Source: Varunaivibrio sulfuroxidans (GTDB lineage Bacteria > Pseudomonadota > Alphaproteobacteria > Rhodospirillales > Magnetovibrionaceae). From it: a DNA stretch of 64,000 nucleotides. A model generated the notes under the pieces. It had not been told where the DNA came from. It did no database searches and worked only from the letters and a program-made list of their open reading frames with translations. The stretch is taken from NCBI RefSeq assembly GCF_029318635.1, contig NZ_CP119676.1, forward strand, positions 2,865,001 to 2,929,000, written 5' to 3'. A program made the position numbers and the translations under genes. The stretch's first letter is position 1; every line of letters begins with the position of its first letter. Shown here in pieces: positions 7,361-53,111 of the stretch.

Positions 7361-7372
7361 GGAAGGGATCGC

Positions 7373-34192: not shown

Positions 34193-34224
34193 GCCGGCGT
34201 TCAGGGACCTCGCACCGCGCGCGC

Positions 34225-34584: not shown

Positions 34585-34698
34585 CGCAACCCTTCCCTGT
34601 TGGACCGAGAAGGGCGGCCTTTCTCGGTCGCTTCGAGCATCCCGGAAAAAGCATGGCGCACGCCGTCCGGCTCGACCTATCGCATCATGCGTCTCGCA

Positions 34699-35229: not shown

Positions 35230-35526
35230 AGGCCGTTGTTATCCGAAAAAATGGCGGGCTGAAAAAAAGAAAGGACAATCATAGCGATCCGTTACGCGAC
35301 CGGCAATCCGGCTTGGCTTTGAAAACAAAAATATACGTATTGTTTTTGCTGTCGAAGGGTTCATTTGGGAGGGGTCTGGAAAAAAGGTTAATGTTGGCGG
35401 TTGGAAACCCCAAGTAAGAGAGAGCCGAGGAAGATGCGTCGTTCGGAGGTTTTTGTGAGCGATGGAGACGGCGGGTACCCCACGCCCTGCGCTGTCGTCA
35501 TATGATTTTTATCTTGGGAGGATCCT
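35230..35526. other. apt-TAXI divergent intergenic region
   Basis: About 300 bases between divergent genes. It holds an AT-rich near-palindrome centred on TACGTA (about 35324-35349, CAAAAATA on one side and TTGTTTTTG on the other). The rest shows no clear gene or promoter hexamers. The binding site GGGAGGATCCT precedes the TAXI gene. Confidence 0.5.
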
Positions 35527-36513: not shown

Positions 36514-36745
36514 GGAACCCCTTCCCGGAGAGCGCGTTCCCGTACATTTTAGGGCCGGGTCAACGGTTTTCTCCATTGCGCGAGGTCGATGCCTTCTCCG
36601 GTCGCGTGCGTGCGGGTTTCTTCGTGGGGGAATAATGGGGGGAGAAAATAACGGAGCAAGAAAAATACATTTCTTTTGCGCCGTTACGCCCCATTTATAG
36701 AGCGGGAGACCGGATGTTTGGCGCGCGCGATGGAATTTTAGGTTT
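36514..36745 (+). other. TAXI-kinase intergenic region
   Basis: About 230 bases with no gene. It includes a purine-rich AT-rich patch (near 36630-36670). I see no convincing promoter hexamers or terminator, so the receptor and kinase could share a transcript or not. The kinase start has only a weak ribosome binding site (TTTTAGG). Confidence 0.4.
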
Positions 36746-39226
36746 ATGCAAGGCGATAAAGGTCAAGGGCTTCGGCCTCGCAGGTTCACGTTAGAACAAC
36801 GTTTACTGCTTTTTTGGCTGGGATCGCTATTTGGCGCGGTGCTTTTGGTCGGCCTCGTGTTTACATACCAGATCAAATCCCACATGCAGGACAATGCGCG
36901 CGCCAAATTGGAAGAAACCTTGCTTCATGTGCGCACCGGCCTGACGACATACACCCTGCATTTAGAGGATATCGCCAATGTGCTTGCCCGGCAGGGCGAA
37001 CTCGTTGCGTTGACGCAATCCATCGCCATGGACGACCCTTTCGTGGCGATGGACGTTGCCGTGCAAAGGGTGCGATTGGCCGATGAATTGGAGGAACGCA
37101 TCGGCGAATCGCACCTGGATTTTATCGCCGCCCTGGATATTCATGGGCGATTGAACGCGTTTGTCGAGCGCCCCGCCGACGAGAAAAGCGAGGAAGGGAC
37201 TTCCTCCCTACCGATTGTGAAAGGTTACCGAGCCGGGCGGGGAAAAGACGCGGTCCTTTTTATGAAAGATCGTGTTGATGGCGAATTTCATGTTTTGTTT
37301 GGCGGGCGAACTTTCGCCGAACGGATCGTCCGTCTGGGCATGAATTTTCCAAACACCTCCTTCTACCTGAGTGATGGGCGTTATTTATATCGGGCCGCCG
37401 CGCGCGCCCTTGTCCAAAGAAGTATCCGAGGAGGGAGCCAACCGTTGGGTCAAATCGTTGTGGCGCGGCGCATCGATGCGGACTTCATCGAAAGAGTGAC
37501 GGCGCATCCCGGCATAAATTTTTCGTATTTTATTGGAAGTCCGGCGCACAATGTCGGGACGTTGCGCGCTCCGTCGGCCGTGCGCGGGGCTTTTGAGAAT
37601 ATCGGCGCCGTCGCCGATCTTTTTGCTCAAAAAATGTCCCACGCCCTTGCCTCCACCGGAGGGTATTACTTGGAAGGGGGCAAGGTCAGCCTGCTTGACG
37701 GTCGCCGAGCTTATTTCTTCGCCGGCGTCAGCAAGGGCGAAGTCGTGCAAGAAATCGAGGCGTTTTCGGTAGCGAGCCTCGAAACCATGGCCCTTATCGC
37801 CTTGTTGGTGCTGCCGATCGGAATTTATTTGCTGCGCCGGCTGATTACAACGCCGCTGGCGCTGTTGCGCCACGGCGCGCAACAGATCACCGAAGGACGC
37901 TATGGCGCCTTGGTCAATTTTCGTCCGGGGGATGAATTGGGGGATCTCGCCCGGTCGTTTAACGTCATGTCCGATAGCGTCCGCGCCCGTGAAAACGATT
38001 TGCGCGTCCTGTCGTTCGAATTGGAAGACCTGGTGCGCGAACGGACGCGCGCGCTTGAACTGGAGATGTCTGAACGCGCGCGCGCGCAGGCGATGCTGAA
38101 GACGGTTATCGACAATCTTGCCGATACCATCATCACCACCGATTGCGATGGGTATATTTTGAGCGTCAATCCGGCGGGGTTGGAGATGTTCGGTTATGGC
38201 GAGACGGAACTCCTGGGCCAGAAGGTCGGCATCCTGATGCCTTCTCAAATATCGGCGCGCCATGACGCCTATATGCGGGCGTACGAAGGGGGTGTTCGAT
38301 CAAAGATTATCGGTGTGGGGCGGCAATTGGAAGGTCGCCGCAAGGGCGGCGCGATGTTTCCCATGGAGGTTGCGATCAGTGAATTTACCATCGATGAGAA
38401 GCGGTATTTCACCGGAATTTTGCGTGATATTACCCAACGAAGGCAGGCCGAGCAGGATCTAATCGACGCCAAGTTCAGGGCGGAAAAAGCCAGCCGTGCG
38501 AAATCCAAATTGTTGTCATCGGTGAGCCATGAGTTGAGGACTCCGATGAACGCCATTATCGGTTTCGGGGAATTATTGAAATTGGAGGGAGATAATCCTC
38601 TTGACGAAGATCAGCGCGCATATGTGACGCAAATCGTCGAGGCGGGCTCCCATCTCTTACATTTGATCGATGGCGTTTTACAGCTTGCCGACATGCAAAA
38701 CGAGACAATGGAATTGGTCCCGCAAGCCGTCCGGGCGCTTCCCATCATAGAGGCCTGCCTCGCCGGGATCGCGCCCGAGGTGGACGCACGCCGTCTCAGC
38801 GTTCAAAACGATTGCAAGGGGCGGGACCTTCCCGATATTTTCGTCGATCCAGGAGGGTTTGAGACCGTCCTCGAAAATTTGCTGTCCAACGCCGCCAGAT
38901 GCACCCGCCCCGGCGGCGAAGTGCGCGTCTCCTGCACTTTCATAGAGAACGGCGAGAACGGCAAACTTCGTTTTTCCGTTCGGGATATGGGGGGGGGTCT
39001 TGCCGAAGATAGTTTTGAAGACCTGTTTCACCCTCGGCGCCGGCTGGATAGCGGTGATGATGACGAGGAGGGGGTGCGCGTGGGCCTGGTCGTGGCGAAA
39101 AAAATAGCGACCGCCATGGGTTGTGAGATCGGTTTTGAAAGTGTGCTCGACGTCGGCAGCGTGATCTGGATAGATGTTGATCCCGTGGAGACTGATCTCG
39201 TGGTGACTAAAGAGACGCGGCCATAG
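36746..39226 (+). CDS. Membrane sensor histidine kinase with periplasmic sensor, HAMP and PAS domains
   Basis: An 826-residue kinase. Order: short cytoplasmic start, membrane helix 1 (about 20-43), a large periplasmic domain (about 45-340, the size of a double Cache-type sensor), membrane helix 2 (about 346-367), HAMP, a coiled region, a PAS domain (about 450-560, TDCDGYILSVNPAGLEMFGYGE), HisKA with phosphorylated H595 in SHELRTPMNAI, and a HATPase domain with N-box ENLLSN (N715) and a glycine-rich DMGGGLAED. There is no receiver or Hpt domain at the C-terminus. Neighbouring TAXI receptor, Hpt and LuxO-like genes suggest a shared pathway, which is inference. Confidence 0.9.
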   Translation: MQGDKGQGLRPRRFTLEQRLLLFWLGSLFGAVLLVGLVFTYQIKSHMQDNARAKLEETLLHVRTGLTTYTLHLEDIANVLARQGELVALTQSIAMDDPFVAMDVAVQRVRLADELEERIGESHLDFIAALDIHGRLNAFVERPADEKSEEGTSSLPIVKGYRAGRGKDAVLFMKDRVDGEFHVLFGGRTFAERIVRLGMNFPNTSFYLSDGRYLYRAAARALVQRSIRGGSQPLGQIVVARRIDADFIERVTAHPGINFSYFIGSPAHNVGTLRAPSAVRGAFENIGAVADLFAQKMSHALASTGGYYLEGGKVSLLDGRRAYFFAGVSKGEVVQEIEAFSVASLETMALIALLVLPIGIYLLRRLITTPLALLRHGAQQITEGRYGALVNFRPGDELGDLARSFNVMSDSVRARENDLRVLSFELEDLVRERTRALELEMSERARAQAMLKTVIDNLADTIITTDCDGYILSVNPAGLEMFGYGETELLGQKVGILMPSQISARHDAYMRAYEGGVRSKIIGVGRQLEGRRKGGAMFPMEVAISEFTIDEKRYFTGILRDITQRRQAEQDLIDAKFRAEKASRAKSKLLSSVSHELRTPMNAIIGFGELLKLEGDNPLDEDQRAYVTQIVEAGSHLLHLIDGVLQLADMQNETMELVPQAVRALPIIEACLAGIAPEVDARRLSVQNDCKGRDLPDIFVDPGGFETVLENLLSNAARCTRPGGEVRVSCTFIENGENGKLRFSVRDMGGGLAEDSFEDLFHPRRRLDSGDDDEEGVRVGLVVAKKIATAMGCEIGFESVLDVGSVIWIDVDPVETDLVVTKETRP

Positions 39227-39488
39227 CCCTTGGGTTTTAAATACCCTTAAAATTTCACACGGTAAAAATTCCGCGCCGGCGAGGGAGGTTCCTTTGGCGG
39301 CATACGGCCTTGCCGGGCACGAGATGGGTGTTTCTCCCAAAACTTTCTGGAGGGGGGGTTGACATTCGTTTTGAATAGTGTCGCTTTTGAAGAAATAAAT
39401 GCGCATCCACCACCGTCGATATACATTGTCGATGACGGGATGCGAACATATTGAAAAATATGATTTTTATAGGGAGAAGGGGCGTATC

Positions 39489-40757
39489 ATGCTTAAGAAA
39501 TTCCTATTACCCGCCGCTGTCGCGGTCATGGCGCTCGGTACGGTCGCGCAGGCGCGGGCGGTCGAGGTTTCGATTTCCTGCGGGGCCGTCGGGGCCGAGC
39601 TGAACATCTGTAAAAGCGGCGCCGAGGCCTGGGCGGCGAAAACCGGAAACACGGTCAAGGTCGTCTCGACTCCGAATTCGACGACGGAACGTTTGGCGTT
39701 GTATCAACAGCTTTTGGCCGCCCACGCCGGCGACATCGACGTTTTTCAAATCGACGTCATTTGGCCGGGCATTTTGGGACAGTATTTCATCGATTTAAAA
39801 AAGTACTCCAAGGGCGCGGAGAAAGCGCATTTCAAGGCGATCGTCGAGAACAATACCGTTGGCGGGCGTCTGGTGGCGATGCCCTGGTTCACCGATGCCG
39901 GGGTGCTTTACTACCGCAAGGACCTGCTGGAAAAATATGGCCTGTCTGTCCCCGCCACGTGGCGAGAGCTGACCGCCGATGCGCAAAAAATCCAAGATGG
40001 CGAGCGCGCCGCGGGCAATAAAAAATTCTGGGGCTTCGTGTTCCAGGGCAAGGCCTATGAGGGATTGACCTGCGATGCATTGGAGTGGGTTGATTCGTAC
40101 GGTGGCGGCGACATCGTCAACGCCAAGGGCGATATCACGATCAACAATCCCAAGGCGGTCGAGGCCTTGACCATGGCGGCGAGTTGGCCGGGCAAGATCG
40201 CCCCCGAGGGGGTGCTCAATTACGCCGAGGAGGAGGCCCGCGGCGTCTTCCAATCGGGTAATGCGGCGTTCATGCGTAACTGGCCTTATGCCTGGGCGTT
40301 GGGCAATTCGGCCGACAGTCCCGTGAAGGGGAAAATCGCCGTCGCCGCGCTGCCCAAAGGTGGGGTGAACGGCAAGAATACCGGCACCCTTGGCGGTTGG
40401 CAGTTGGCGGTGTCGAAATATTCCAAGCACCAGGCCGCCGCCGCGGATTTGGTGATGTATCTGACCAGCCGCGCCGAACAGAAGCGTCGCGCTATCGAAC
40501 GGTCATACAATCCGACGATTGTCAGTTTGTACGAAGATCCCGAGGTTCTGGCCGCCGTGCCGTTTTTCGGCTCTCTGCGCGCCACTTTCGCCAATGCGGT
40601 GGCACGTCCCTCACGGGTGACCGGCGCGAAATACAACCGCGTGTCCAGCGCGTTCTGGAATGCGGTGCATGACGTCCTGACCGGCAGGGCGACGGCCAAG
40701 GCGTCGCTGGCGCGCCTGGACGGCAATTTGAAGCGCATCAAGCGCGGCAAGTGGTAA
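39489..40757 (+). CDS. ABC transporter sugar-binding protein (alpha-glucoside type)
   Basis: A 422-residue periplasmic binding protein of the MalE/ThuE class. It has a signal peptide ([17 protein letters not shown] to about 23), the strand pair [31 protein letters not shown] near 58-88 found in trehalose, maltose and sucrose receptors, then [19 protein letters not shown] and [11 protein letters not shown]. The ATG at 39489 has GAGAAGGGG upstream; the frame extends 30 codons further but that part is not signal-like. It heads a six-gene operon laid out like aglEFGAK of rhizobia plus a fructokinase. Confidence 0.92.
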
Positions 40758-40874
40758 CTTACAGGATGTAACGCGCCCATACGCCGACCACGGGAGGACG
40801 GACTTCGGTTTTCCCGCTGTCGGACGGGCGTGTTGCCGTTGGAGCATATTTTGGAGTGGGGGGCGTAAAAGGCC

Positions 40875-41789
40875 ATGGCCAAACGGTCCAACCTGACGCG
40901 TGCGCGTTTGCGCGCCGCGTGGATTTTCCTGGCGCCGATGCTTATCGTTCTGGTGCTGGTTGCGGGCTGGCCTTTGGGCCGTACGATATGGTTCGGCTTC
41001 ACCGACGCGTCTCTCTCGAACATGTCGGTGTATCACTTCATTGGCTTGGATAACTATCTGGTCAAGTCGGGAGGGGCGTACTATGGCGTTCTCGTCGATC
41101 CCGTGTGGTGGCATGCGGTTTGGAACACGGTTCGTTTTTCCTTGATCTCGGTTTCTTTCGAAACGGTGCTCGGGCTGATCGTCGCTTTGGTTCTCAATGC
41201 GCGTTTTTTCGGGCGCGCCGTAGTGCGCGCGGCCATCTTGATCCCGTGGGCGATCCCAACCATCGTATCGGCGAAGATGTGGGGCTGGATGCTGCACGAT
41301 CAATTCGGCATCATCAACGATATGTTGAGCCACCTCGGCCTGATCAGCCACCCGATCGCCTGGACCGCCAACCCGGATACTGCGATGTGGGCGGTGATCA
41401 TGGTCGATGTCTGGAAGACAACCCCGTTCATGGCGTTGTTGATTCTGGCCGGACTACAGATGCTGCCGTCCGACTGTTACGAGGCGGCGCGGGTGGACGG
41501 CGTTCATCCCGTCAAGGTGTTCTTCCGCGTCACCTTGCCGCTGGTTTGGCCGGCGGTGATGGTCGCGGTCATTTTCCGGATGCTCGACGCCCTCAGGATC
41601 TTCGATTTGATCTATGTGCTGACATCCAATTCCGAAGGCACCATGTCGATGTCGGTATACGCCCGCCAGCAGTTAGTGGATTTCCAGGATGTCGGGATCG
41701 GCTCGGCGGCCTCGACGCTGCTGTTCTTGATCATCGCGGCGCTGACGATCGTCTTTATTTTCGCCGGTCGCGTCAAGGTATCGGATTAG
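40875..41789 (+). CDS. ABC sugar transporter permease, first subunit
   Basis: A 304-residue inner-membrane protein of the MalF type with six or so hydrophobic helices and a signal-anchor start (AWIFLAPMLIVLVLVAGWPL). The EAA loop that docks on the ATPase is seen in YEAARVDGVHPVKVFFRVTLPLVWP. AAAAGG precedes the ATG. It follows the binding protein by 117 bases and precedes the second permease by ten bases. Family resemblance is to AglF/ThuF. Confidence 0.93.
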   Translation: MAKRSNLTRARLRAAWIFLAPMLIVLVLVAGWPLGRTIWFGFTDASLSNMSVYHFIGLDNYLVKSGGAYYGVLVDPVWWHAVWNTVRFSLISVSFETVLGLIVALVLNARFFGRAVVRAAILIPWAIPTIVSAKMWGWMLHDQFGIINDMLSHLGLISHPIAWTANPDTAMWAVIMVDVWKTTPFMALLILAGLQMLPSDCYEAARVDGVHPVKVFFRVTLPLVWPAVMVAVIFRMLDALRIFDLIYVLTSNSEGTMSMSVYARQQLVDFQDVGIGSAASTLLFLIIAALTIVFIFAGRVKVSD

Positions 41790-41799
41790 AGGAACGGTG

Positions 41800-42627
<828 letters not shown>

Positions 42628-42636
42628 GGCGCAGAG

Positions 42637-44310
42637 ATGACGGATAAGGCAGGGACGGATGCGCAGACGCTGGGACTGAAGAACGATCCCGACTGGTGGC
42701 GCGGAGCGGTCATCTATCAGATTTATCCCCGCAGCTTTCAGGATACCAACGCCGATGGCGTCGGTGATCTCAAGGGGATCGCCCGGCGCATGGATTATAT
42801 CGCCGAGTTGGGCGCCGACGCGATTTGGATTTCGCCGTTTTTCCGCTCGCCGATGAAGGATTTCGGCTACGACGTTTCCGACTACAACGCCGTCGATCCG
42901 CTATTCGGCGCTCTTGAGGATTTCGACGAGATGATCGCGGCGGCGCACGCCCGGGGCGTTCGGGTGATGATCGACCTGGTGATCAGCCACACCTCCGATC
43001 AGCACGCCTGGTTCAAGGAAAGCCGCGCCGACAGGACCAACCCCAAGGCCGAATGGTATGTTTGGGCCGACGCCAAGCCGGAAGGATCGCCGCCCAACAA
43101 CTGGCTGTCGATTTTCGGCGGCTCGGCGTGGGAATGGGACACCGCGCGCCGTCAGTATTACCTGCATAACTTCCTGATCAGCCAACCCGATTTGAATTTC
43201 CATAATCCCGAGGTCCAGGACGCGGTTCTGGACGCGGCCCGCTTCTGGCTCGATCGGGGGGTCGATGGCTTCCGCCTCGATACCGTTAATTTTTATTTCC
43301 ACGACCGCCAATTGCGCGACAACCCGCCGCTTCCCAAGGGGAAATCCCTGACCGGAGTCGAGGACAACAACCCTTACGCCTTTCAAGATCACGTCCATGA
43401 TAAAACGCAGCCGGAGAACCTCGCATTTCTCGAACGCCTGCGCGGGCTGATGGACGAATATTCGTCCATTTCCTCGGTCGGCGAGATCGGCGCCGACACC
43501 GATCCGCCGGCGACCACGGCGGCTTATACCGAGGACGGCAAGCGCATTCATATGGCCTACAGTTTCGACCTGTTGACCGAGGAATACTCCGCCGCCCACA
43601 TTCGCGACGTGGTGGAAACGTTCGAACGCTCGGTGGGCGGTGGGTGGCCGTGCTGGGCGTTTTCCAACCACGATATCCGCCGCGTCGTGACGCGCTGGAA
43701 CAAGGGCAAGGACCCCGACCGTTTCGCGCCGATGGCCTTGGCGCTGTTGCTGTCGCTGCGCGGTTCGGCGTGCGTCTATCAGGGCGAGGAACTGGGCCTG
43801 AGCGAGGCCGACGTGCCCTTCGAATTGCTGCAAGATCCGTTCGGCAAACGGTTTTGGCCCGCCTACAAGGGACGCGACGGCTGCCGCACCCCGATGCCAT
43901 GGCGCGAAGGCGGCTTGGCGGCGGGCTTTAGCGACGCCGCGCCATGGTTGCCCGTGCCGCCCGAACACGCGGCCCGCGCCGTCGGCGTTCAGGAGACCGA
44001 CGATGGGTCCGTGCTCGCCCATGCCCGGCGTTTCATCGCCTGGCGGCGCGGCCACGACGCGTTGCGCCGGGGCGGCATCGTTTTTCACGATCGACCCGAA
44101 CCGATCCTGGCGTTCAGCCGCACCGGGACGGCGCCGATCCTGTGCCTGTTCAACCTGTCGAGCGCGGCGCAAAAGGTCGATGTGTCGGACTTCGACGGCT
44201 TGTCGGCGCTCGACGGCCACGGCTTCGCCGCGTCCGGCGGGGGGGCGCGGGGAAGCATCGCCCTGGGCGGCTACGGCGTGTGGTACGGCGTTTACAACAA
44301 GAAGGATTGA
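42637..44310 (+). CDS. aglA: GH13 alpha-glucosidase
   Basis: A 557-residue cytoplasmic glycoside hydrolase of family 13 (oligo-1,6-glucosidase / alpha-glucosidase subgroup). It begins WWRGAVIYQIYPRSFQDTN and has GYDVSDYNAVDP and MIDLVISHTSDQH. The catalytic triad is nucleophile D215 in GFRLDTVN, acid/base E283 in SVGEIG and D346 in FSNHDIRR. No signal peptide is seen, so it splits sugars after uptake. Within this transporter operon, and with a fructokinase two genes on, sucrose or a related alpha-glucoside is the likely substrate; trehalose or maltose cannot be excluded. Confidence 0.93.
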   Translation: MTDKAGTDAQTLGLKNDPDWWRGAVIYQIYPRSFQDTNADGVGDLKGIARRMDYIAELGADAIWISPFFRSPMKDFGYDVSDYNAVDPLFGALEDFDEMIAAAHARGVRVMIDLVISHTSDQHAWFKESRADRTNPKAEWYVWADAKPEGSPPNNWLSIFGGSAWEWDTARRQYYLHNFLISQPDLNFHNPEVQDAVLDAARFWLDRGVDGFRLDTVNFYFHDRQLRDNPPLPKGKSLTGVEDNNPYAFQDHVHDKTQPENLAFLERLRGLMDEYSSISSVGEIGADTDPPATTAAYTEDGKRIHMAYSFDLLTEEYSAAHIRDVVETFERSVGGGWPCWAFSNHDIRRVVTRWNKGKDPDRFAPMALALLLSLRGSACVYQGEELGLSEADVPFELLQDPFGKRFWPAYKGRDGCRTPMPWREGGLAAGFSDAAPWLPVPPEHAARAVGVQETDDGSVLAHARRFIAWRRGHDALRRGGIVFHDRPEPILAFSRTGTAPILCLFNLSSAAQKVDVSDFDGLSALDGHGFAASGGGARGSIALGGYGVWYGVYNKKD

Positions 44311-44316
44311 CGGACA

Positions 44317-45441
44317 ATGGCCGAGGTTATCTTAAAAAACGTCAGCAAATCCTTCGGCAGGGTGGAGGTTATTCACGGCGTCGATCTGCACCTTCGCGAC
44401 AAGGCGTTTACCGTCTTCGTCGGCCCGTCGGGGTGCGGTAAATCGACGTTGTTGCGCCTGATCGCCGGGCTTGAGGATATTTCGTCGGGCGATCTTTTGT
44501 TCGACGGTCGGCGGGTCAACGAGTTGACCCCGAAGGAACGCGGCATTTCGATGGTCTTTCAGTCCTATGCCTTGTATCCGCATATGACGGTCTATCAGAA
44601 CATGGCGTTCGGCTTGAAACTGGCTAAGGCGGAACAGGGAACGATCGACCAGCGGGTGCGCCGGGCGGCGGGTATCTTGGAACTGGGCGAGCTGCTGGAT
44701 CGCCTGCCCAAACATTTGTCGGGAGGCCAGCGTCAGCGCGTCGCCATCGGGCGGGCGATCGTGCGCGAGCCGCAGGTGTTCTTGTTCGACGAGCCGCTGT
44801 CCAACCTGGATGCGGCGTTGCGGGTGCAGATGCGCATCGAAATCGCCAAACTGCACGAAAATTTGGGAGTGACGATGGTCTACGTCACCCACGATCAGGT
44901 CGAGGCGATGACCCTTGCCGACACCATCGTCGTCCTGTCCGACGGCAATGTCGAGCAGGTCGGCGCGCCGCTCGATCTGTACCATCATCCGCAGAACCGT
45001 TTCGTCGCCGGATTTATCGGCTCGCCGCAGATGAACTTTATCGACGGCGAAGTGGTGAGCGCCGACGCGGGCGGGGTAAAAATCGCCATCGCAGGCGGGG
45101 TCACGGTGGTGGCTCGGGTCGCGGGCGGTGGCGTCAATGCGGGCGACGCCTTGACCTTGGGGGTGCGCCCCGAACACCTGCGCGAGATCGAGGCCGGCGC
45201 AGCCGCCCCGACGGCGGGCGACGCGGTTCTCGACGGCGCGGTGGAGGTGCTCGAACAGTTGGGCGAATCGCACTTCCTGCATGTTAGGACCGACACGGGG
45301 ATTATCACGTTGCGCGCCGGCGGCGATACGCCGTTGCACGAACACGCGAAAATAGGCATCGAAATTTCGGGTGCGCACTGTCACCTCTTCCGGCCCGATG
45401 GGACCGCCTTGCAAAGAGCGCCGGCAGGGGCGTCGGCGTAA
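44317..45441 (+). CDS. ABC sugar transporter ATPase (MalK/UgpC family)
   Basis: A 374-residue ATPase with Walker A GPSGCGKST near residues 36-44, Q-loop VFQSYALYPHMTV, signature LSGGQRQRVAIGRAIV, Walker B VFLFDEPLSNLDA and the switch H in VTHDQVEAM. The C-terminal TOBE/MalK-type regulatory domain starts near 240 (GSPQMNFIDGEVV). It starts six bases after the glucosidase stop and powers the two permeases of the operon. It corresponds to AglK/ThuK in layout. Confidence 0.95.
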   Translation: MAEVILKNVSKSFGRVEVIHGVDLHLRDKAFTVFVGPSGCGKSTLLRLIAGLEDISSGDLLFDGRRVNELTPKERGISMVFQSYALYPHMTVYQNMAFGLKLAKAEQGTIDQRVRRAAGILELGELLDRLPKHLSGGQRQRVAIGRAIVREPQVFLFDEPLSNLDAALRVQMRIEIAKLHENLGVTMVYVTHDQVEAMTLADTIVVLSDGNVEQVGAPLDLYHHPQNRFVAGFIGSPQMNFIDGEVVSADAGGVKIAIAGGVTVVARVAGGGVNAGDALTLGVRPEHLREIEAGAAAPTAGDAVLDGAVEVLEQLGESHFLHVRTDTGIITLRAGGDTPLHEHAKIGIEISGAHCHLFRPDGTALQRAPAGASA

Positions 45442-45465
45442 GAACAAAGCAGAAGGAAAAAGCCC

Positions 45466-46449
45466 ATGTTGGTCTGCTGCGGAGAGGCCCTAGTGGATTT
45501 CGTCGGCGTTGGCGCCGGGGCCGAACGCCTATATCGCCCGATCCCCGGTGGCGCACCGTTCAATAGTGCGATCGGCGCGGCGCGCCTGGGGATAAAGACC
45601 GCCTTTTTCGGGGCGTTGGGCGCGGACTGGCTGGGCGACATGGTGCGCGCCCGTCTACACGAAAGCGCGGTGCGTATGGATCTGCTGCAATCGCGGGCGC
45701 TGGCGACGCCGATCGCCCTGGTTCACGAAAGCGGCGAGGGCGCGCAGTACGTTTTTCATGGCGTCGGCCCGCAAACGCCGATCATCGATCCCGACCGCTT
45801 CCCCGAACGGCTGCCCGACGAAACCGACGCGCTCCTGATCGGAGGGTTGGCGACCATCGTCGATCCCCCGGCCGCCGCGATCGAGGCGCTGGCGGACCGC
45901 CACGCGCGGGATGTCATCGTTTATTTTGATCCCAACGTCCGCCCGGCGATGGTCTCCGACCGCCCGGCGTTCATGGCGCGGATGGAACGGCTCTGCGCGC
46001 TGTCCGCCATCGTCAAAATCAGCGCCGACGATGCAAAGTGGTGCTATCCCGACCTGACGGACGAGGCCGCCGCCGAGCATCTCGCCTCCCTTGGAGGGAG
46101 CGTGGTCTTGCTGACCCGGGGGGGCGACGACGCCCGTGCTTTGGGGCCGTGGGGATGGGCGCGCGTCCGTCCTCCCCAGGTGGTCGTGGGCGATACCGTC
46201 GGCGCGGGGGACACCTTCAACGCCGGTTTTATCACCGCGCTGATGCGCGCCGGCGTGAACGAGGCGCGGGCGTTGCGCCGCCTAGGCGTGGCGGAGGTTT
46301 CCGGGATGCTCGATTTCGCCTGCGCGGCGGCGGCGCTGTGCTGCACCCGCCACGGCGCGCAGGCGCCTTATCTTGACGAACTGGAACGCTTCATGGGAAG
46401 GCATGCCGCGCCTCCCAAGTCGCCGGTATTTCGAACGCCGCCCCCTTGA
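45466..46449 (+). CDS. PfkB-family carbohydrate kinase, probable fructokinase
   Basis: A 327-residue ribokinase-fold enzyme. The N-terminal signature is GGAPFNSAIGAARLG near 28-42, the C-terminal signature DTVGAGDTFNAGF near 243-255 with the catalytic base D249, and FGALGADWLGDMVR is typical of fructokinases. It lies 24 bases after the ATPase and ends the sugar operon. Together with the alpha-glucosidase it suggests that sucrose is split to glucose and fructose, with fructose then phosphorylated. The substrate is inferred from context. Confidence 0.88.
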   Translation: MLVCCGEALVDFVGVGAGAERLYRPIPGGAPFNSAIGAARLGIKTAFFGALGADWLGDMVRARLHESAVRMDLLQSRALATPIALVHESGEGAQYVFHGVGPQTPIIDPDRFPERLPDETDALLIGGLATIVDPPAAAIEALADRHARDVIVYFDPNVRPAMVSDRPAFMARMERLCALSAIVKISADDAKWCYPDLTDEAAAEHLASLGGSVVLLTRGGDDARALGPWGWARVRPPQVVVGDTVGAGDTFNAGFITALMRAGVNEARALRRLGVAEVSGMLDFACAAAALCCTRHGAQAPYLDELERFMGRHAAPPKSPVFRTPPP

Positions 46450-46488
46450 ACGCCCCGCCTGCGAGATGTCGATGTTTCGGCGCGCGGT

Positions 46489-48921
46489 CTACTCGATGTC
46501 CGGCGCCGTGAGCGGGAGTTGAATGGTAAATGTCGTGCCCTTGCCCGCGTGTGACTGGACCTGAATGGTTCCACCGTGTTTGTTGACCACGATATCCCAG
46601 GAAATGGCGAGGCCTTGCCCGGTTCCCTTGCCGACTTTTTTAGTCGTGAAAAAGGGATCGAACATGTGTTTCTGCACCTTCGGGGACATCCCGGCTCCGG
46701 TATCGGATATCTTCACTTCGACGATGTCCTCTCGTAATCGGGTGCTTAAGGCTATCGTTCCCTTTTCCGACGCATTCAATTCCTGAATGGCATGGGCGGC
46801 ATTCACGATCATGTTCAAAAAGACCTGATTGATTTCGCCGGGGAGACACTGAATTTGGGGCAAGTTTTCGTCCAGGTCCAGTTCGATGTCGGCGAAAAGC
46901 TTCCATTCGTTTCTGGATACCGTCAGGGTGTTTTTTAGCGAGGCGTTGATGTCGGCGAGTGTTTTTTCCTTGGTGCTGGGATGGGAAAATTCCTTCATCG
47001 ACAGGACGATACGCGCGACATCCTTGACGCCGTTCAGCGATTGTTCGATGGCCTGGGGGATGTCCTCTTCAAGATAGTCGATATCCAGATCGTTTAGGCG
47101 TGTCGCCAGTTTTTCCAGCTCTTCGGCGTCAACGGGACATCCATCGGGGGCATTTTTTAAGGCTTCCACAAGCGTATGCGTCGGGCGCAAAACCGCCAGG
47201 ATATTTCCCACAACATCCTGTAGGAAGGTTAAGTTGTCGCCGATGTATTGCGTGGGGGTGTTGATTTCATGCGCGATGCCCCCCGCGAGAAGCCCGATGG
47301 CCTCCATTTTCGAAGCATGCATCAGATCCCGCTCAAGCTCTTCTTGGTGTAATTTGTCTTTCTTACGCTGGCTGATGTCGGAAACGACGGCGATGAATTG
47401 CCGTCCTTGTTCGGTGTCTAATTTACTGATGCCCAATTCAATGGGAAAGGTCTCGCCGTTTTTGCGCAGCCCCTCCAACTCCCGAGTGCCGGTTCCAAGA
47501 ATGCGCGGCGTTTCGGTCGAATTATGTGCGGCGATATAGTCATCGTGTCGATCGCGGTGCGGGTGAGGGACGAGTATCGACACGTTTTCACCCAGAATTT
47601 CGGAATTTTCATAACCGAACGTGGCCTCCGCCACGCAGTTGAACATCAATATCGTTCCCTGCTCATCAACGATGACGACACCGGAAATGATGTTGTCGAG
47701 AATCTTGCGTACGTAGTCTTCACGCGAACGGGACTCTAACTCCGCCTGCTTGTGCTTGGTGATATCGGTCCATATTCCGATGACGCCGCCTTGAAATGTT
47801 TTTTTTGTATTGATTGAAAACCAGCGGCCGTCTCGAAATTGTTCCTCGTAAATTCCGGATGCCGTGGTGTATCGTTGAAGATGCGCGCTTACGTAGCTCT
47901 CGATATCAAGGGGCGTGGTATCGACGATGCCCGCCTCGCACCACCCGCGAATCAACGTTTCCAAGGGCGTGCCTTTGACAAGAAGCCGAGAAATTGGCCG
48001 CAATAGGTTGGTGAAGGCATCGTTGTGCGTGACGATATTGAGGTTCTCGTCCAGAACGACCACCCCCTGGGGCGTCGCCCGCATGATGTCGAACATCGCC
48101 GTGCGGCTTTCTTGCGCCGAGGCCATCGCTTGTCGCAGGTGGCGGTCTACGAACGTCGCGATCACGCTGAGTCCGACGACGAGCAGGGCGGCGACGGCGA
48201 CGGCCGCGCCCAGGGTGGAAGGGTGTATTTCTGTGGATTTGGGGACATGCTGAAAATCGGCATGGAAGAAATACGTCGCCGACATGGCGATGTAGTGGGT
48301 CGTGCTGACCGCCAGCCCCAAAATCGCCGCACCGAAAAAATCCGATGCAAGCGCGTGCGATTTTGAAGAAGAGTTATGGCGCCCGACGATAAAAAAAACA
48401 AACAAACCAAAGGAGGACAACAACAAGCCGGCGATGATGGAAAACAAGAATCGCGCAGGATCATAGAATATCACGTCATCCATCACCATTGCGCTGGACC
48501 CGACGTAGTGCATGCCGGCGATTCCGGCGCCGAGAACGAGTCCGCCGCCGGCGATACGTTTGAGGGAAACTGTGGAATTCCCGACGATATGAATGACGGC
48601 GGCGCTGGCCAGCATGGCGATTACGCCCGACAGAACGGTCAGATTGATATCGTAGTCAATCGAATCGGGTGTGGAATACGCCAACATCCCGATGAAATGC
48701 ATCGACCAAATGCCGTTTCCCATCGCCAGGGCGCCGGCCATGATCCAGCCCCAGCGGGCCTTTTTCGTGTTTTCAGAGTGTCGAATATGGGCGACGATCT
48801 TCAATGCCGCGTAAGCGCCGAGCGCCGCGATGATATAGGACAGAACGACCAAAACGGGATCATACGACCCGGTATGCGCCAACGATTTATCCATCTCCGG
48901 GGGGAGGAAATGAAAATTCAT
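46489..48921 (-). CDS. MHYT-domain PAS sensor histidine kinase
   Basis: An 810-residue kinase. The first 250 residues are an MHYT membrane domain with seven helices and the repeated motifs MHFIGM, MHYVGS and THYIAM, thought to bind a metal and sense oxygen, CO or NO. Two PAS domains follow (about 275-390 and 400-515), then HisKA with the phosphorylated H551 in GIAHEINTPTQYIGD, and a HATPase domain ending near 806 (DTGAGMSP, GKGTGQGLAIS). It is the last gene of a four-gene minus-strand operon whose other members are response regulators. No attached receiver, so those regulators are its likely targets. Confidence 0.92.
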   Translation of the reverse strand: MNFHFLPPEMDKSLAHTGSYDPVLVVLSYIIAALGAYAALKIVAHIRHSENTKKARWGWIMAGALAMGNGIWSMHFIGMLAYSTPDSIDYDINLTVLSGVIAMLASAAVIHIVGNSTVSLKRIAGGGLVLGAGIAGMHYVGSSAMVMDDVIFYDPARFLFSIIAGLLLSSFGLFVFFIVGRHNSSSKSHALASDFFGAAILGLAVSTTHYIAMSATYFFHADFQHVPKSTEIHPSTLGAAVAVAALLVVGLSVIATFVDRHLRQAMASAQESRTAMFDIMRATPQGVVVLDENLNIVTHNDAFTNLLRPISRLLVKGTPLETLIRGWCEAGIVDTTPLDIESYVSAHLQRYTTASGIYEEQFRDGRWFSINTKKTFQGGVIGIWTDITKHKQAELESRSREDYVRKILDNIISGVVIVDEQGTILMFNCVAEATFGYENSEILGENVSILVPHPHRDRHDDYIAAHNSTETPRILGTGTRELEGLRKNGETFPIELGISKLDTEQGRQFIAVVSDISQRKKDKLHQEELERDLMHASKMEAIGLLAGGIAHEINTPTQYIGDNLTFLQDVVGNILAVLRPTHTLVEALKNAPDGCPVDAEELEKLATRLNDLDIDYLEEDIPQAIEQSLNGVKDVARIVLSMKEFSHPSTKEKTLADINASLKNTLTVSRNEWKLFADIELDLDENLPQIQCLPGEINQVFLNMIVNAAHAIQELNASEKGTIALSTRLREDIVEVKISDTGAGMSPKVQKHMFDPFFTTKKVGKGTGQGLAISWDIVVNKHGGTIQVQSHAGKGTTFTIQLPLTAPDIE

Positions 48922-48934
48922 GATGTCTCTCCGC

Positions 48935-50149
48935 TCAATGGTGAATTCCCCACGCGGCCTTTGGAAGGCCTTCCGGGCGATTTTCGGGGGCGGATAACCA
49001 TGTGCTCAATGCGTCGAAATCGAGGGCCTCACTATAAAGGAAGCCTTGCCCCATGTTGCAGCCGAGTGTTTTTAGGACTTCGACCTGTTGGGCGTTTTCA
49101 ATCCCCTCCGCGACGACGCCAAGACCGATGGATTGACCCGCGATAATGAGGGATTTGACGATTGCGGCGCTTTTTGTGTCGTTCAGCATGTGACGGACGA
49201 ACGACCCGTCAATTTTTAGTTTGTGTACCGGAAGATCGCTGAGGTAGGAAAACCCCATGAATCCACTGCCAAAATCGTCCAGGGCGATGGAAAAGCCGGC
49301 CTTGGCCAACTCGATAAGGGTTTTTTTCAGGTCGTTGATGTTTTCGATAAAAACGGTTTCCGTGAGTTCCAATTCCAGAAAACGCGGTGGAATTCCGGCG
49401 GATTTGGTGGCGTTCAGCGCCGAGGTGACCAAATCCAATTGCGTGAAGTAGGCCCCGGAAATATTGGCCGAGGCGATGATTTCTCGGCCCTGCTCTCGCA
49501 ATTGCGCTATATCCTCACACACCGTATGCAGCAGCCATTGCGTGATGGGAATAATTTCTCCCGTGATTTCCGCCGCTGGAATGAATTGAGCGGGTGCGAT
49601 GACGCCATGCTCGGGGTGGCGCCAGCGGATCAGCGCCTCGACGGCGTGCGGGCGACCGGTGGCGATGTTAATTTGGGGTTGATAGCGGATAAAGAACTGA
49701 TTTTGTTCGACGGCGACCTTCAGGTCGCGCCCGTAACGGACGAAATCTTCCGGTGTTAATTCTTGAACATGCGTGCCCTGGCGATTTTCCAGGAAAAGAC
49801 GGATGGCGTCGTCGAGGACGTCGCGCAAATTGGCCGGCGCGATCGGTTTTGTAAGATAGCGATAGATATGTCCTTCGTTGATGGCGTGAATGACATCATC
49901 CTTCTCGCCCCATCCGGAAAGGGCGATCTTGACCGATTTGGGGGCGATTTGGTGCGCCTTGGTGAGAAATTCGACGCCGTTCATGCCGGGCATATTGATG
50001 TCGCTGATAATCACGGCATAAGGGCCACGCGTCGCGATCAGGTTGAGGGCCTCGTCTCCGCTGAGGGCGATATCCATGTCGTACTTCATGGAAAGGTTGC
50101 GTCGGAAGGCCGCCAGTAAATTTGGATCATCATCAACGAATAACAGCAT
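48935..50149 (-). CDS. Response regulator with EAL c-di-GMP phosphodiesterase domain
   Basis: A 404-residue protein: receiver domain (1-120, phosphoacceptor D50 in SDINMPGMNG) joined to an EAL domain (about 145-390). The catalytic set looks complete: VEALIRW, the asparagine in ANISG, the glutamate in LELTETV, LDDFGSG, LKIDGSF and VAEGIE. It should hydrolyse cyclic di-GMP under control of a kinase, most likely the MHYT kinase encoded 13 bases downstream. Confidence 0.93.
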   Translation of the reverse strand: MLLFVDDDPNLLAAFRRNLSMKYDMDIALSGDEALNLIATRGPYAVIISDINMPGMNGVEFLTKAHQIAPKSVKIALSGWGEKDDVIHAINEGHIYRYLTKPIAPANLRDVLDDAIRLFLENRQGTHVQELTPEDFVRYGRDLKVAVEQNQFFIRYQPQINIATGRPHAVEALIRWRHPEHGVIAPAQFIPAAEITGEIIPITQWLLHTVCEDIAQLREQGREIIASANISGAYFTQLDLVTSALNATKSAGIPPRFLELELTETVFIENINDLKKTLIELAKAGFSIALDDFGSGFMGFSYLSDLPVHKLKIDGSFVRHMLNDTKSAAIVKSLIIAGQSIGLGVVAEGIENAQQVEVLKTLGCNMGQGFLYSEALDFDALSTWLSAPENRPEGLPKAAWGIHH

Positions 50150-50193
50150 GTCATACCTTCGATTTCACGAAAAATAGTCGGTTTTCCGCCGTC

Positions 50194-51363
50194 TCAGGCG
50201 GTCTCCTGAACAGCCAGGATGGGCAGGTTGAATTTTCGAATTTGCGCAATATTCCTTAGTCGTTCGATTTGGGTGTCCGTCAATTTCGTTCCCTTGGCGA
50301 GAATCAGGTGCCCTTGTTGAAGTTTGATGTCGGAAAGCAATGTCAAGCCGGAGCGTAGTTGTGGAACATTGAGTTCGAGTACTTTCTGTTGCGCCGTTTT
50401 GCTGCGGTCCTCTTTGCTTAGGAAAATCGACTTGACGACCTTGAGTAGACGGGGGTCGTACAACCCGGTCCTGTTTTCAAGCGCCGCGATAGCGGCGGGA
50501 CTGGGTTCCGGGTCGGGCTGTATGGCGTCGATATCGTGGAAAATTTTAAGCAACCGCGCCCCTAGCGGAATCTCCTTACCGCTGATCTTGTCGTGCGGAA
50601 AACCCGTCCCGTCGAAACACTTGTTTTGGTAATAGACCGTTTGGGCGACCTCCTGCATGCGGGGGATGTTTTGCAACAACTTCTTGCCGGTCTCGGGGAC
50701 TTTCGCGACCATGTCCTGTTCCATCGGAGAGAGAGCCTCGCTCGTACCCGATTTTTTCAATACCTCCTGGGGAAGGGCGACGACGCCGATCTGGGCCAAC
50801 ATCGCCGCCAGTTCCAACTGCCAAGGGTTGGGTATGCCCATCGTCTTGGTGACCTTCTGGGTCCACCCACGGATTTTGATCCCGCGTCCGAAGACTTTTG
50901 GGTTCATCATCGACATCACGTCCGAGAGCACCTTGATGCTTCCGGCCAGGGTTTGTTCGGTCAGGACCCGTTCCGAAATGACCAAGCGGTATTGCTTGAT
51001 CGCATCGTCGATCCCCTTTTGTAGCTGTTCGCGTTCACACGGCTTGGTGAAAAAGCGAAACACGCTGCCTTGGTTGATGGCGTCCATGGCCGTTTTCTGG
51101 TCGGCGTTACCCGTCAACATGATGCGCACAGTGTCGGGAAAATGTTTTTGAAACACCTCCAATAATTGTATTCCGTTCATGGCGGGCATGTTCATATCGG
51201 CGATGATGACCGAAAATTTTCCGCCCTGATGGGCTAATTCCAAGGCTTGTAAGGCGCTATTGGCGGTAACCAGGGCGAACGGCATCCCCCGCATCTGCCG
51301 GCGCAGGGCGGACAGAACGTTTTCCTCGTCATCGACCAATAAAACGACGTCTTGCTCTGGCAT
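50194..51363 (-). CDS. Response regulator with degenerate HD-GYP domain
   Basis: A 389-residue protein with an intact receiver (phosphoacceptor D56 in ADMNMPAMNG) and an RpfG-like second half (about 150-340). The HD-GYP fold can be followed: FDGTGFPHDKISGKEIPLGARLLKI corresponds to the GYP region. However, the metal-binding HD pair is replaced (AAMLAQIGVVALP where active enzymes have a ...LHDIGKV... type motif) and the HPE motif has become VPE. It is therefore probably not a phosphodiesterase but a binding or scaffold protein. The last 60 residues form a separate small segment (LRSGLTLLSDIKLQQGHLIL). Confidence 0.85.
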   Translation of the reverse strand: MPEQDVVLLVDDEENVLSALRRQMRGMPFALVTANSALQALELAHQGGKFSVIIADMNMPAMNGIQLLEVFQKHFPDTVRIMLTGNADQKTAMDAINQGSVFRFFTKPCEREQLQKGIDDAIKQYRLVISERVLTEQTLAGSIKVLSDVMSMMNPKVFGRGIKIRGWTQKVTKTMGIPNPWQLELAAMLAQIGVVALPQEVLKKSGTSEALSPMEQDMVAKVPETGKKLLQNIPRMQEVAQTVYYQNKCFDGTGFPHDKISGKEIPLGARLLKIFHDIDAIQPDPEPSPAAIAALENRTGLYDPRLLKVVKSIFLSKEDRSKTAQQKVLELNVPQLRSGLTLLSDIKLQQGHLILAKGTKLTDTQIERLRNIAQIRKFNLPILAVQETA

Positions 51364-51399
51364 ACCTCTCGCTTTCCTAGGCGGACACGGTGGATGTGT

Positions 51400-52617
51400 T
51401 CATATTTCATACCCCTGCTTGGTTTTTACGGCGCAGGAAATCCAATCCGGGAATTTCCCTAATACCTCCAATTTTCCAAGATAATCGAGATCGAGACGGG
51501 TGTGCGTGGGAGGCAAATTTTCCAGTTCGTCGATGGAAAAACGTACGAGTTCCTGGGCGATATGGAGAAACAGGAGCGGCGAAATCCCTTGATCGGGGGC
51601 ATCCGATGGCGCGTGGTGAAACGATACGGCTTCGACGATGGGGTGGGAAAATCCCCAAAGGCCAAGAAGATACCCGCCTATTTCGCTATGGGTCGCGCCC
51701 AGGACGTGTTTTTCGGCGGTGGTGACCAAACATTTTTCGCGGTCCGTCATGGACATAATCTTCTGAAATTGATCGGGAATTTCAGAAATTTCGAGAATGA
51801 TCCCAAGATGGGATAGGGCGCCCGCGATTTCGGCATGTTCGGCCACGTGTCTATCGACACCGTGAGTTATGGCGATTTCCTTGGAAAGCTGACCGATGAC
51901 TTGGCTACGCAAGCACAGGGTGTCGAAGGTTGCGGACAATTCCTTATGAGGCTCCAAGCGGCTGAAAATAGCGCCGGAAAGGATGAGCGTTTTGATCGTC
52001 TCAAAACCCAGGACGCGCACCGCCTGAAGGGGGGAGGTCGCGGGCGCGGCGAGAGAGAAAAAAGCGGAGTTTGTCAATTTCAACACCATCGCCGTCATGG
52101 CGACGTCATGGTTGATGATTTCCGCAATCTTGCCTGCGGACCCGTGTTCCGAGTTCAGCTCTTGCAGAAGTTCGCCGAAGTTTGCCGGGGGTGTCGGCAG
52201 GTGCTCTACTTTGGAGACGAGGCGGCGCAATTCGGGTTCCGTAAGGATGTCGCGCAGTTTCATCGCGTTTTGGATGCTCAAGATAAGTTCTTCGCTGGAA
52301 CACGGTTTCGCTAAGTATTGGTGCGCGGGGCCGATCGTGCGGATAACGCTTTCTTGATCGGCATAGCCCGATAGAATGATGCGCAGAGCTTCGGGTTGAA
52401 TTTTCCGACAGGCGCCTAAAAAGGCGGCGCCGTCCATTGTCGGCATCTTCATGTCCGAAACGATGACATCGACGGGGCTTTTTTTAAGAATTTCCAGGGC
52501 TTTATCGCCACTATCGACAAACGCCATTTCCCATGAATCGCGCATGGGGCGTAGCATGCGCCGCAGCGCAGATAGGATGTTCGCCTCGTCGTCGACGAAA
52601 AGGATGCGTTTATTCAT
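51400..52617 (-). CDS. Response regulator with HDOD domain
   Basis: A 405-residue protein: receiver domain (1-120, phosphoacceptor D55 in SDMKMPTMDG) followed by an HDOD domain (about 135-330; LPTPPANFGELLQELN, KLTNSAFFSL, VLGFETIKTLIL, HLGIILEISEIPDQF, HSEIGGYLLGLWGF). HDOD domains are non-catalytic relatives of HD hydrolases used in signalling scaffolds. It is the first gene of the four-gene minus-strand operon (gaps 36, 44 and 13 bases). Confidence 0.9.
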   Translation of the reverse strand: MNKRILFVDDEANILSALRRMLRPMRDSWEMAFVDSGDKALEILKKSPVDVIVSDMKMPTMDGAAFLGACRKIQPEALRIILSGYADQESVIRTIGPAHQYLAKPCSSEELILSIQNAMKLRDILTEPELRRLVSKVEHLPTPPANFGELLQELNSEHGSAGKIAEIINHDVAMTAMVLKLTNSAFFSLAAPATSPLQAVRVLGFETIKTLILSGAIFSRLEPHKELSATFDTLCLRSQVIGQLSKEIAITHGVDRHVAEHAEIAGALSHLGIILEISEIPDQFQKIMSMTDREKCLVTTAEKHVLGATHSEIGGYLLGLWGFSHPIVEAVSFHHAPSDAPDQGISPLLFLHIAQELVRFSIDELENLPPTHTRLDLDYLGKLEVLGKFPDWISCAVKTKQGYEI

Positions 52618-53022
52618 GTTCCGACAATCGATCTTAAGCTTGTATGACTGTGTTAAATACTCCTGTGTATGTTGTTCTCCCCGGTGACCTTTTCCATCGT
52701 TAATGGCTATTTTTTACCGTGGAGTGGGGAATCGCCCGTTCGCGTGGCGCCCGTTGGGGGGCATCCCTTCGCTTTTTCGTTTGCCGCTCTGCTTTGCGTT
52801 CGACGACCGTTATGGAAATCGTTATGAAATAGGTGATGGTCGCGGGTAGATGCGCGCCGATTTTCGTCACGGTGGGATCGCTTTAACAGGGCGATCCACG
52901 TGCAAACCCGGGGAAGAACGCTCGGCGTCGTCGCGCCCGAGATGGACAAGAATCAAGAATAATGCGGTGCAAAATATTCCCGATTTTCTTGCTTTGCTGG
53001 TATTTTGGAAATAACTTCAATA
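52618..53022. other. Intergenic region upstream of the four-gene regulatory operon
   Basis: Together with the repeat that follows, this is about 500 bases without a convincing gene between divergent transcription units. An 80-codon open frame at 52707-52949 on the minus strand has no family features and irregular composition. The operon promoter is probably in the AT-rich part nearest 52618-52690, but I cannot pick out hexamers with confidence. Confidence 0.5.
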
Positions 53023-53082
53023 CTCGGGTCAGGACCTATTCATCTGAGCGTCTGGCGGAGATGAACTAGGTCCTGACCCGAG
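53023..53082. repeat. 60-bp near-perfect palindrome
   Basis: CTCGGGTCAGGACCTA (53023-53038) pairs perfectly with 53067-53082, and the stem continues inward with TTCATCT (53039-53045) and AGATGAA (53059-53065), one base bulging. The result is a 23-base-pair hairpin with a 13-base loop, GAGCGTCTGGCGG. There is no T-run, so it is not a terminator. A half copy lies at 30614-30644, which marks it as a dispersed repeat. Confidence 0.85.
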
Positions 53083-53111
53083 AGAGCGGAAGAGGAAGGC
53101 AATGGGGGCTA

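Follow-up and report, generated by a model that had tools for sequence, protein, structure and literature searches.

A four-gene operon of Varunaivibrio sulfuroxidans as a probable lineage-specific extension of a recurring kinase and two-pseudoenzyme core

Introduction

Among described systems, the Hno network of Shewanella oneidensis (HnoX-HnoK/HnoS) has a kinase that branches to HnoB, which joins a receiver (REC) domain to an EAL domain, to the transcription factor HnoC, and to HnoD, a degenerate HD-GYP inhibitor of HnoB (PMC6335343, PMC8846402). The sources disagree on HnoD, which is an inactive diguanylate cyclase (DGC) domain in PMC8738867 and a degenerate HD-GYP in PMC6335343. Here we analysed a four-gene operon of Varunaivibrio sulfuroxidans that lies within a 64,000-nucleotide stretch of contig NZ_CP119676.1 (positions 2,865,001 to 2,929,000; hereafter the window, to which coordinates refer unless stated) and encodes an MHYT-PAS histidine kinase with three REC proteins that carry HDOD, degenerate HD-GYP and EAL outputs.

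Single components of this kind have been described elsewhere. In Burkholderia pseudomallei, the kinase of the NosP-NosK-NosR system phosphorylates NosR, a REC-degenerate HD-GYP protein (HG-GTP; PMC12570481). DvhD of Desulfovibrio vulgaris, an inactive HD-GYP protein with SQ replacing HD, is a receptor of cyclic dimeric guanosine monophosphate (c-di-GMP; PMC13090378). For HDOD receivers, DVU0330 of Desulfovibrio was inactive on c-di-GMP and GsmR of Xanthomonas had neither phosphatase nor phosphodiesterase activity (PMC4114195).

The operon and its recurring core

We consider it probable, with moderate confidence, that this one-kinase, three-receiver operon consists of an ancient core, a HEINTPxQ kinase and two pseudoenzymes, to which REC-EAL was added in the lineage. 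The host genome is a single contig of 3.07 Mb, and the four minus-strand open reading frames (ORFs) are transcribed in the order REC-HDOD, REC-HD_5 (HD-GYP type), REC-EAL and MHYT-PAS-PAS-HATPase kinase, with 36, 44 and 13 bp between successive genes. A previous reading of the window from its letters alone (the sequence-only reading) had described four tightly spaced genes on one strand, which these gaps confirm, and its span of 46489-52617 was exact; its domain assignments (MHYT-PAS kinase with EAL, degenerate HD-GYP and HDOD receivers) also held, with all domains above their Pfam cut-offs (E-values of 5e-34 for MHYT, 2.1e-68 for EAL, 7.2e-39 for HD_5 and 1.3e-43 for HDOD). The features, all on the minus strand, are:

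51400..52617, minus strand: REC-HDOD response regulator, first gene, 405 amino acids (ORF and Pfam)
codon about 52453-52455, minus strand: phospho-acceptor Asp55 of REC-HDOD (sequence)
about 51607-52200, minus strand: HDOD domain of REC-HDOD, HD dyad replaced (LSHLG) (Pfam and alignment)
50194..51363, minus strand: REC-degenerate HD-GYP response regulator, 389 amino acids, phospho-acceptor Asp56 (ORF and Pfam)
about 50446-50934, minus strand: HD domain of REC-degenerate HD-GYP (Pfam)
about 50791-50796, minus strand: Ala190-Gln191 at the HD dyad place of REC-degenerate HD-GYP (alignment)
48935..50149, minus strand: REC-EAL response regulator, 404 amino acids, phospho-acceptor Asp50 (ORF and Pfam)
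about 49028-49729, minus strand: EAL domain of REC-EAL (Pfam; every catalytic residue checked is present)
46489..48921, minus strand: MHYT-PAS-PAS histidine kinase, 810 amino acids (ORF and Pfam)
48127..48921, minus strand: N-terminal membrane MHYT sensor region of the kinase, about residues 1-265 (Pfam and motifs)
codon about 47269-47271, minus strand: kinase H551 within GIAHEINTPTQYIGDN (sequence)
46489..47346, minus strand: kinase core, about residues 526-810, of the subfamily paired with REC-HDOD and REC-degenerate HD-GYP (similarity searches)

We looked for this arrangement at the loci reached by a contig search that used 11 degenerate HD-GYP orthologues as queries, of which we analysed the 80 best-scoring of at least 485 confirmed. 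These loci are mostly metagenome bins and neither random nor independent, phylum names follow record titles, and counts come from a stop-to-stop rescan, with the duplicate pairs L038/L055, L044/L098 and L042/L068 outside the counts. In 67 of the 80 loci an HDOD gene lay no more than 3 kb away on the same strand, always upstream; 66 loci had a window-type kinase within 7 kb, and in 63 this kinase carried the motif HE[IL]NTPxQ[YF]. HDOD and the motif kinase occurred together in 57 loci from about eight phyla: Pseudomonadota, deltaproteobacteria (now placed in Desulfobacterota), Acidobacteriota, Planctomycetota, Verrucomicrobiota, Nitrospirota, Nitrospinota and Hydrogenedentota. Both were out of reach in seven loci, mostly on short contigs or close to where a contig ends. 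In the 53 loci with at least 4.5 kb upstream, HDOD was present in 48, the motif kinase in 52 and both in 47; the five without HDOD were L094, L095, L104, L111 and L127, and only L087 had no motif kinase. Records with the core that are not bins include Thalassospira, Magnetospirillum, Pararhodospirillum, Pacificispira and a complete planctomycete genome.

Matches to the degenerate HD-GYP protein better than 1e-59 were found in 12 of 60 sampled relatives, its own genome included (the match in G021 is cut by a contig end). Among 385 alphaproteobacterial genomes, six had a full-length match at or below 1e-130 and nine had the kinase subfamily (1e-35); all six were among the nine (P about 2e-11, with genomes treated as independent), and the three kinase-only genomes (G109, G163 and G435) carry REC-HDOD beside the subfamily kinase. 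G440 is a Woeseiaceae bin, and its class is presumably Gammaproteobacteria; among 369 genomes of that class ten had a match better than 1e-84, two of which (G440 and G444) had already been reached through the loci. Sought in other genomes, as the sequence-only reading had proposed, the kinase and two pseudoenzymes recur widely, and the window is not alone in having all four parts.

REC-EAL had a narrower distribution. EAL was found near six of the 80 loci: four have it on the same strand within 7 kb, and two on the opposite strand no more than 3 kb away. Window-like REC-EAL (receiver 85-87 bits) was seen in three other loci: in L122 (Pacificispira), HDOD, EAL, degenerate HD-GYP and kinase genes share one strand and REC-EAL is 3 bp from the degenerate HD-GYP gene; in L123 the two genes are convergent and also 3 bp apart; and in L289 REC-EAL occurs with HDOD and a divergent kinase, in a region with no degenerate HD-GYP gene. 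The first two were reached through the degenerate HD-GYP protein, which biases their linkage, and L289 through a REC-EAL search of the 385 genomes, in which it was the sole match at 1e-66 besides the window; the same search in the 369 genomes of the G440 class returned general EAL domains. Because REC-EAL is rare near the core and the core is widespread, EAL is probably an effector that this lineage added to an old module of two pseudoenzymes, and it looks late and optional.

Kinase and receivers

The kinase core scored 663 bits to itself and 71 bits at its next-best place in the host genome, which has 32 kinase-core matches, the window kinase included. We compared 46 of the 49 receiver matches in the genome (three below the Pfam cut-off were left out and two others below it were kept), and for each of the three operon receivers the other two were nearest by whole-domain identity, at 37-40% versus a background mean of 25%. 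The paired acidic residues, phospho-acceptor Asp and Lys are kept in all three. Since the receivers are mutually closest and the kinase has no close paralogue in the genome, one kinase with three outputs is the best reading; these comparisons support a shared kinase without proving it, and phosphotransfer to all three receivers is likely. The alpha-1 patch of receivers is linked to kinase choice, and on this patch the HDOD and HD receivers were mutually nearest (67%). Across loci, same-locus HDOD/HD alpha-1 similarity was 0.491, above all 1000 permutations (mean 0.460, maximum 0.487), with relatedness uncontrolled.

The kinase has three MHYT repeats, two PAS domains and a HATPase domain, and keeps the motifs that we take to be the H-, N- and G-boxes. 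Its MHYT-type motifs start at residues 74 (MHFI), 137 (MHYV) and 208 (THYI), and a crude hydropathy scan gave four membrane-like segments versus the seven described for MHYT domains. In Afipia carboxidovorans, the MHYT domain of CoxC answers carbon monoxide and needs copper (PMC11347149). By analogy with CoxC, gas sensing by the kinase is about evenly balanced between true and not. The sequence-only reading had called it a gas- or light-type sensor; the gas part can stand as an extension from the CoxC MHYT domain, and we rejected the light part, having found no feature pointing to light. Two further MHYT ORFs occur in the host genome outside the window, one at genome positions 1740962-1742677 with a kinase-core match (649 amino acids) and one of 1024 amino acids at 1705194-1707035 with a partial GGDEF match.

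Catalytic and degenerate output domains

REC-EAL retains E171, N229, E261, D291, D292, K312, E348 and Q368, which we take to have catalytic roles; these residues are invariant across three relatives and the set agrees with solved EAL proteins, making it highly likely that REC-EAL is an active c-di-GMP phosphodiesterase. The host genome has 23 GGDEF matches (two probably within one gene), so c-di-GMP signalling is plausible. In the degenerate HD-GYP protein, A190-Q191 replaces H-D and Q246-N247 replaces H-H, and the DGxGFP loop is kept, with GFP instead of GYP. The HDOD domain has S-H where H-D is expected, and His was found at the first place in none of 11 aligned HDOD proteins. The description of the HD-GYP domain as degenerate was therefore correct and extends to HDOD, and the predicted combination of one active and two non-catalytic outputs agrees with a complete set of EAL residues and an HD dyad missing from both partners. 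We also considered an active HD-GYP phosphodiesterase and rejected it on the absence of the HD dyad and HH metal ligands in the window protein.

Loss of the dyad was general in this family. We counted 103 window-type sequences from 114 rows after dropping 11 that were canonical-clade, partial or remote (some of the 103 are themselves partial), and found the HD dyad, and its first His, in none of them. The commonest residues at the dyad places were S at the first (53 of 103) and Q (43 of 103) or P at the second, and the GxP loop was mostly kept. Within the HD output domain, nine columns were invariant in 40 sequences (40 of 93 HD sequences were used). We modelled the HD part alone (residues 136-389), since a full-length model in Foldseek/VIA mostly matched receiver domains, and the AlphaFold model had a mean predicted local distance difference test (pLDDT) score of 94.3. 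It aligned with 4mcw (Z 18.8, 177 aligned, root-mean-square deviation (rmsd) 3.2) and with DvhD 9rbz (Z 17.4, 185 aligned, rmsd 3.7); the fold of the modelled domain is of HD-GYP type despite the lost residues. The receiver of the same protein is 40% identical to PDB 3kcn, a Rhodopirellula receiver named 'adenylate cyclase homolog', and this deposited name may be misleading.

A FastTree phylogeny of 111 sequences included the HD protein of L230, a stand-in for HnoB/HnoD that was chosen by architecture and is not HnoD itself. This protein fell in the canonical-like clade (supports 0.984 and 0.996), where eight canonical-like sequences, the L230 protein and one more form ten leaves with support 0.996. 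The window protein fell outside it, in a clade of 29 leaves (support 0.983) that has no canonical members. If L230 is a fair stand-in, this suggests at least two separate origins of degenerate HD-GYP regulators that accompany EAL. The L230 operon (571-10053, a Pseudomonadales bin) is HnoB/HnoD-like, with H-NOX, three kinases, REC-EAL and REC-HD; H-NOX and one kinase are on one strand, and a kinase, REC-EAL, REC-HD and another kinase are on the other. The REC-HD dyad of L230 keeps His and has Arg in place of Asp.

Variable sensors and optional outputs

We surveyed 54 kinases, the window kinase and 53 of the 67 found at loci. MHYT was present in five of them: the window kinase and those of L106, L108, L112 (by Pfam) and L114 (by similarity), the latter four loci coming from three gammaproteobacterial bins. 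PAS types were found in most (PAS_9 in 44), receiver domains in 12, and HAMP, GAF, Cache, CHASE3, phosphonate-binding and ammonium transporter domains in one to three each; the ammonium transporter domain (5.5e-113) is fused to one subfamily kinase. H-NOX also occurs beside the core as a separate gene. In L045, from the window's own family, it precedes the kinase and degenerate HD-GYP genes, with no HDOD; in L046 it lies downstream of the degenerate HD-GYP gene (by Pfam), and L047 looks alike by eye.

Other receivers adjoin the module. A REC protein with a weak LuxR-type (GerE) C-terminus was observed in the alphaproteobacterial loci L046, L048, L122, L127 and L289, with GerE below the Pfam cut-off in four of these five; it could be the counterpart of HnoC. 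In L185, a REC-GGDEF gene (6823-7788; GGDEF 2e-7) follows the degenerate HD-GYP gene and is another optional output.

Proposed mechanism and alternative explanations

In the scheme that we propose, MHYT, which on the CoxC analogy would take a copper-dependent gas or redox input, and the two PAS domains would set autophosphorylation at H551, and phosphate would pass from H551 to Asp55 of REC-HDOD, Asp56 of REC-degenerate HD-GYP and Asp50 of REC-EAL. The HDOD and degenerate HD-GYP proteins are probably made together and would act through protein contacts. Phosphorylated REC-EAL would hydrolyse c-di-GMP, and the degenerate HD-GYP protein, perhaps with HDOD, may modulate REC-EAL or a different target depending on phosphorylation, much as HnoD acts on HnoB. 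Direct restraint of REC-EAL by the degenerate HD-GYP protein, on the HnoD/HnoB analogy, is rather doubtful, and with EAL near only six of the 80 loci it is unlikely to have been the original job of the degenerate HD-GYP protein.

Several observations weigh against the operon as we read it. At most loci the degenerate HD-GYP protein has no EAL gene nearby. The REC-EAL alpha-1 patch is nearer to an unrelated receiver (0.57) than to those of its partners (0.50 and 0.43), another unrelated receiver ties at 0.50, and the similarity among the three receivers may reflect common descent and not a shared kinase. The core itself is not always complete: G268 has a remote full-length degenerate HD-GYP match (1e-51) and no subfamily kinase, L307 has a subfamily kinase standing alone without receivers nearby, and L045 pairs kinase and degenerate HD-GYP without HDOD. 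Additionally, a promoter scan was at chance level, with three promoter-like sites versus 4.3 expected.

The strongest competitor is that the kinase drives the two pseudoenzymes to a target unrelated to REC-EAL, which would then be a parallel output sharing the signal. This is a credible explanation, if one we hold somewhat less probable than not: the two-pseudoenzyme core often has no EAL gene beside it, no EAL match was found in ten regions of order relatives (L038-L047), and the LuxR-like and GGDEF receivers adjoin the core in other loci, but the 3-bp spacing of REC-EAL and the degenerate HD-GYP gene in L122 and L123 hints at a functional linkage. Another candidate role for the degenerate HD-GYP protein is that of a phosphorylation-gated c-di-GMP receptor like DvhD, reading the level set by REC-EAL. 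The DvhD SQ dyad (PMC13090378) matches the commonest family residues, the GxP loop is mostly kept, c-di-GMP-bound DvhD was the top Foldseek match of the HD model, and DvhD was the second-best PDB sequence by profile. Most DvhD ligand contacts, however, are not kept in the window protein, as judged by eye from the profile alignment. In this alignment Lys stands for Y523, Gln for K582, Ile for M646 and Arg for E668, and the positions of R650 and Y652 lie within or next to a loop that is shorter; the window protein retains L577 and, from the bridging site, P567, and has Phe for Y621. Six of the eight canonical-site contacts are thus replaced or in the shorter loop, one conservatively (M to I), and we regard the receptor role as unlikely.

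Two further explanations were weighed. The extra receivers might act as phosphate sinks, with no outputs of their own, and so tune the kinetics of REC-EAL, as several receivers per kinase and outputs without catalytic residues would allow; conservation of the HD output domain across phyla and its confident model are unlike a dispensable domain, and we judge this very improbable. It is also unlikely, if less so, that the kinase serves only some receivers, with the others obeying different kinases and sharing the operon for co-expression. The 32 kinase-core matches in the genome and the alpha-1 patch of REC-EAL would fit such partial service, against which stand the whole-domain similarity of the three receivers, the co-occurrence of kinase and degenerate HD-GYP across genomes, and the permutation result for same-locus HDOD/HD patches.

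We therefore retain the reading of an old kinase and two-pseudoenzyme core with REC-EAL added in the lineage. A broader proposal, tentative and on balance not the expected outcome, is that the core is an undescribed, widespread module in which the paired HD pseudoenzymes act jointly on an indirect or non-c-di-GMP target, with sensors and EAL, LuxR-like or GGDEF outputs plugged in by lineage, the window version coupling it to c-di-GMP breakdown. If true, many bacteria route signals through two co-encoded enzyme look-alikes, and the added REC-EAL offers a readable handle on their job through their effect on it. MHYT, a gas-sensor domain that has seen little testing, would then also sit upstream of a defined two-component output, and degenerate HD-GYP regulators would seem to have arisen more than once.

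Genomic surroundings

The flanking genes are on the opposite strand, with a PfkB kinase ending at 46449 and a MarR gene starting at 53112. As both neighbours run the opposite way, these four genes appear to form a whole unit, bounded by:

52618..53111, no strand: divergent intergenic region, 494 bp, expected to hold the operon promoter (position)
46450..46488, no strand: convergent gap to the fructokinase-like gene, 39 bp, operon end (position)

The promoter scan reported no sigma-70-like site in the 494-bp divergent region. By eye, a purine-rich stretch resembling a ribosome site precedes each of the three inner genes, and no minus-strand terminator-like sites were found within the operon gaps (16 in the region in total versus 9.3 expected). 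Plasmid carriage was not apparent: a tblastn search of 72,556 plasmid records with the degenerate HD-GYP protein gave no match at 1e-20; DNA matches to the operon occurred in 17 plasmid records, and the ten listed cover 1-2% of it.

Convergent with the operon, a sugar uptake cluster at 39399-46449 (plus strand) encodes a substrate-binding protein, two permeases, an alpha-glucosidase-like enzyme, an ABC ATPase and the PfkB kinase, of which only PfkB was checked by Pfam and the others were named by eye. Beyond it, at 32723-39226 (plus strand), genes named by eye as an NtrC-like response regulator, a periplasmic-binding-like protein and a PAS kinase lie in a row, possibly a separate two-component set.

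Comparison with known systems

The operon resembles the Hno network in having a kinase and three receivers, one a REC-EAL with complete catalytic residues and one a degenerate HD-GYP (PMC6335343). It differs in its third receiver, which is HDOD in the window and the DNA-binding HnoC in Hno, and in its sensor, since the Hno kinase is under an H-NOX nitric oxide (NO) sensor and the window kinase contains its own MHYT-PAS sensor; we found no H-NOX (HNOB) match in the host genome. The degenerate HD-GYP protein also belongs to a different clade from the H-NOX-linked stand-in L230. The sequence-only reading had proposed an unusual branched c-di-GMP circuit: the branching stands, 'unusual' does not given the Hno precedent (PMC6335343), and the recurring part is the kinase with two pseudoenzymes.

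The remaining systems each share one component. The CoxC MHYT domain also has three motifs in membrane segments, but it is fused to a LytTR DNA-binding domain and the window MHYT to a kinase (PMC11347149). The Nos system has a single receiver and a FIST-domain NO sensor, and nosRPK is described without HDOD or EAL in the available part of PMC12570481. DvhD shares a dyad-less HD-GYP domain with the same fold as the window model, but is a membrane receptor with PAS and dCache, with no REC described in the portion of PMC13090378 at hand. GsmR and DVU0330 are likewise HDOD-type receivers, for which the accessible text of PMC4114195 does not describe pairing with a degenerate HD-GYP receiver.

Among the matches listed from the open-licence literature, we found no description of the core of kinase, REC-HDOD and REC-degenerate HD-GYP. 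Searches of this literature for HDOD together with degenerate HD-GYP, for REC-HDOD, or for HDOD with both H-NOX and response regulators found none, and the core was not found in papers on HDOD, c-di-GMP and histidine kinases, such as the available parts of PMC4114195 and PMC6416229. What is known, then, is the branched two-component c-di-GMP circuit, and what is apparently new is the widespread two-pseudoenzyme core beneath the window operon.

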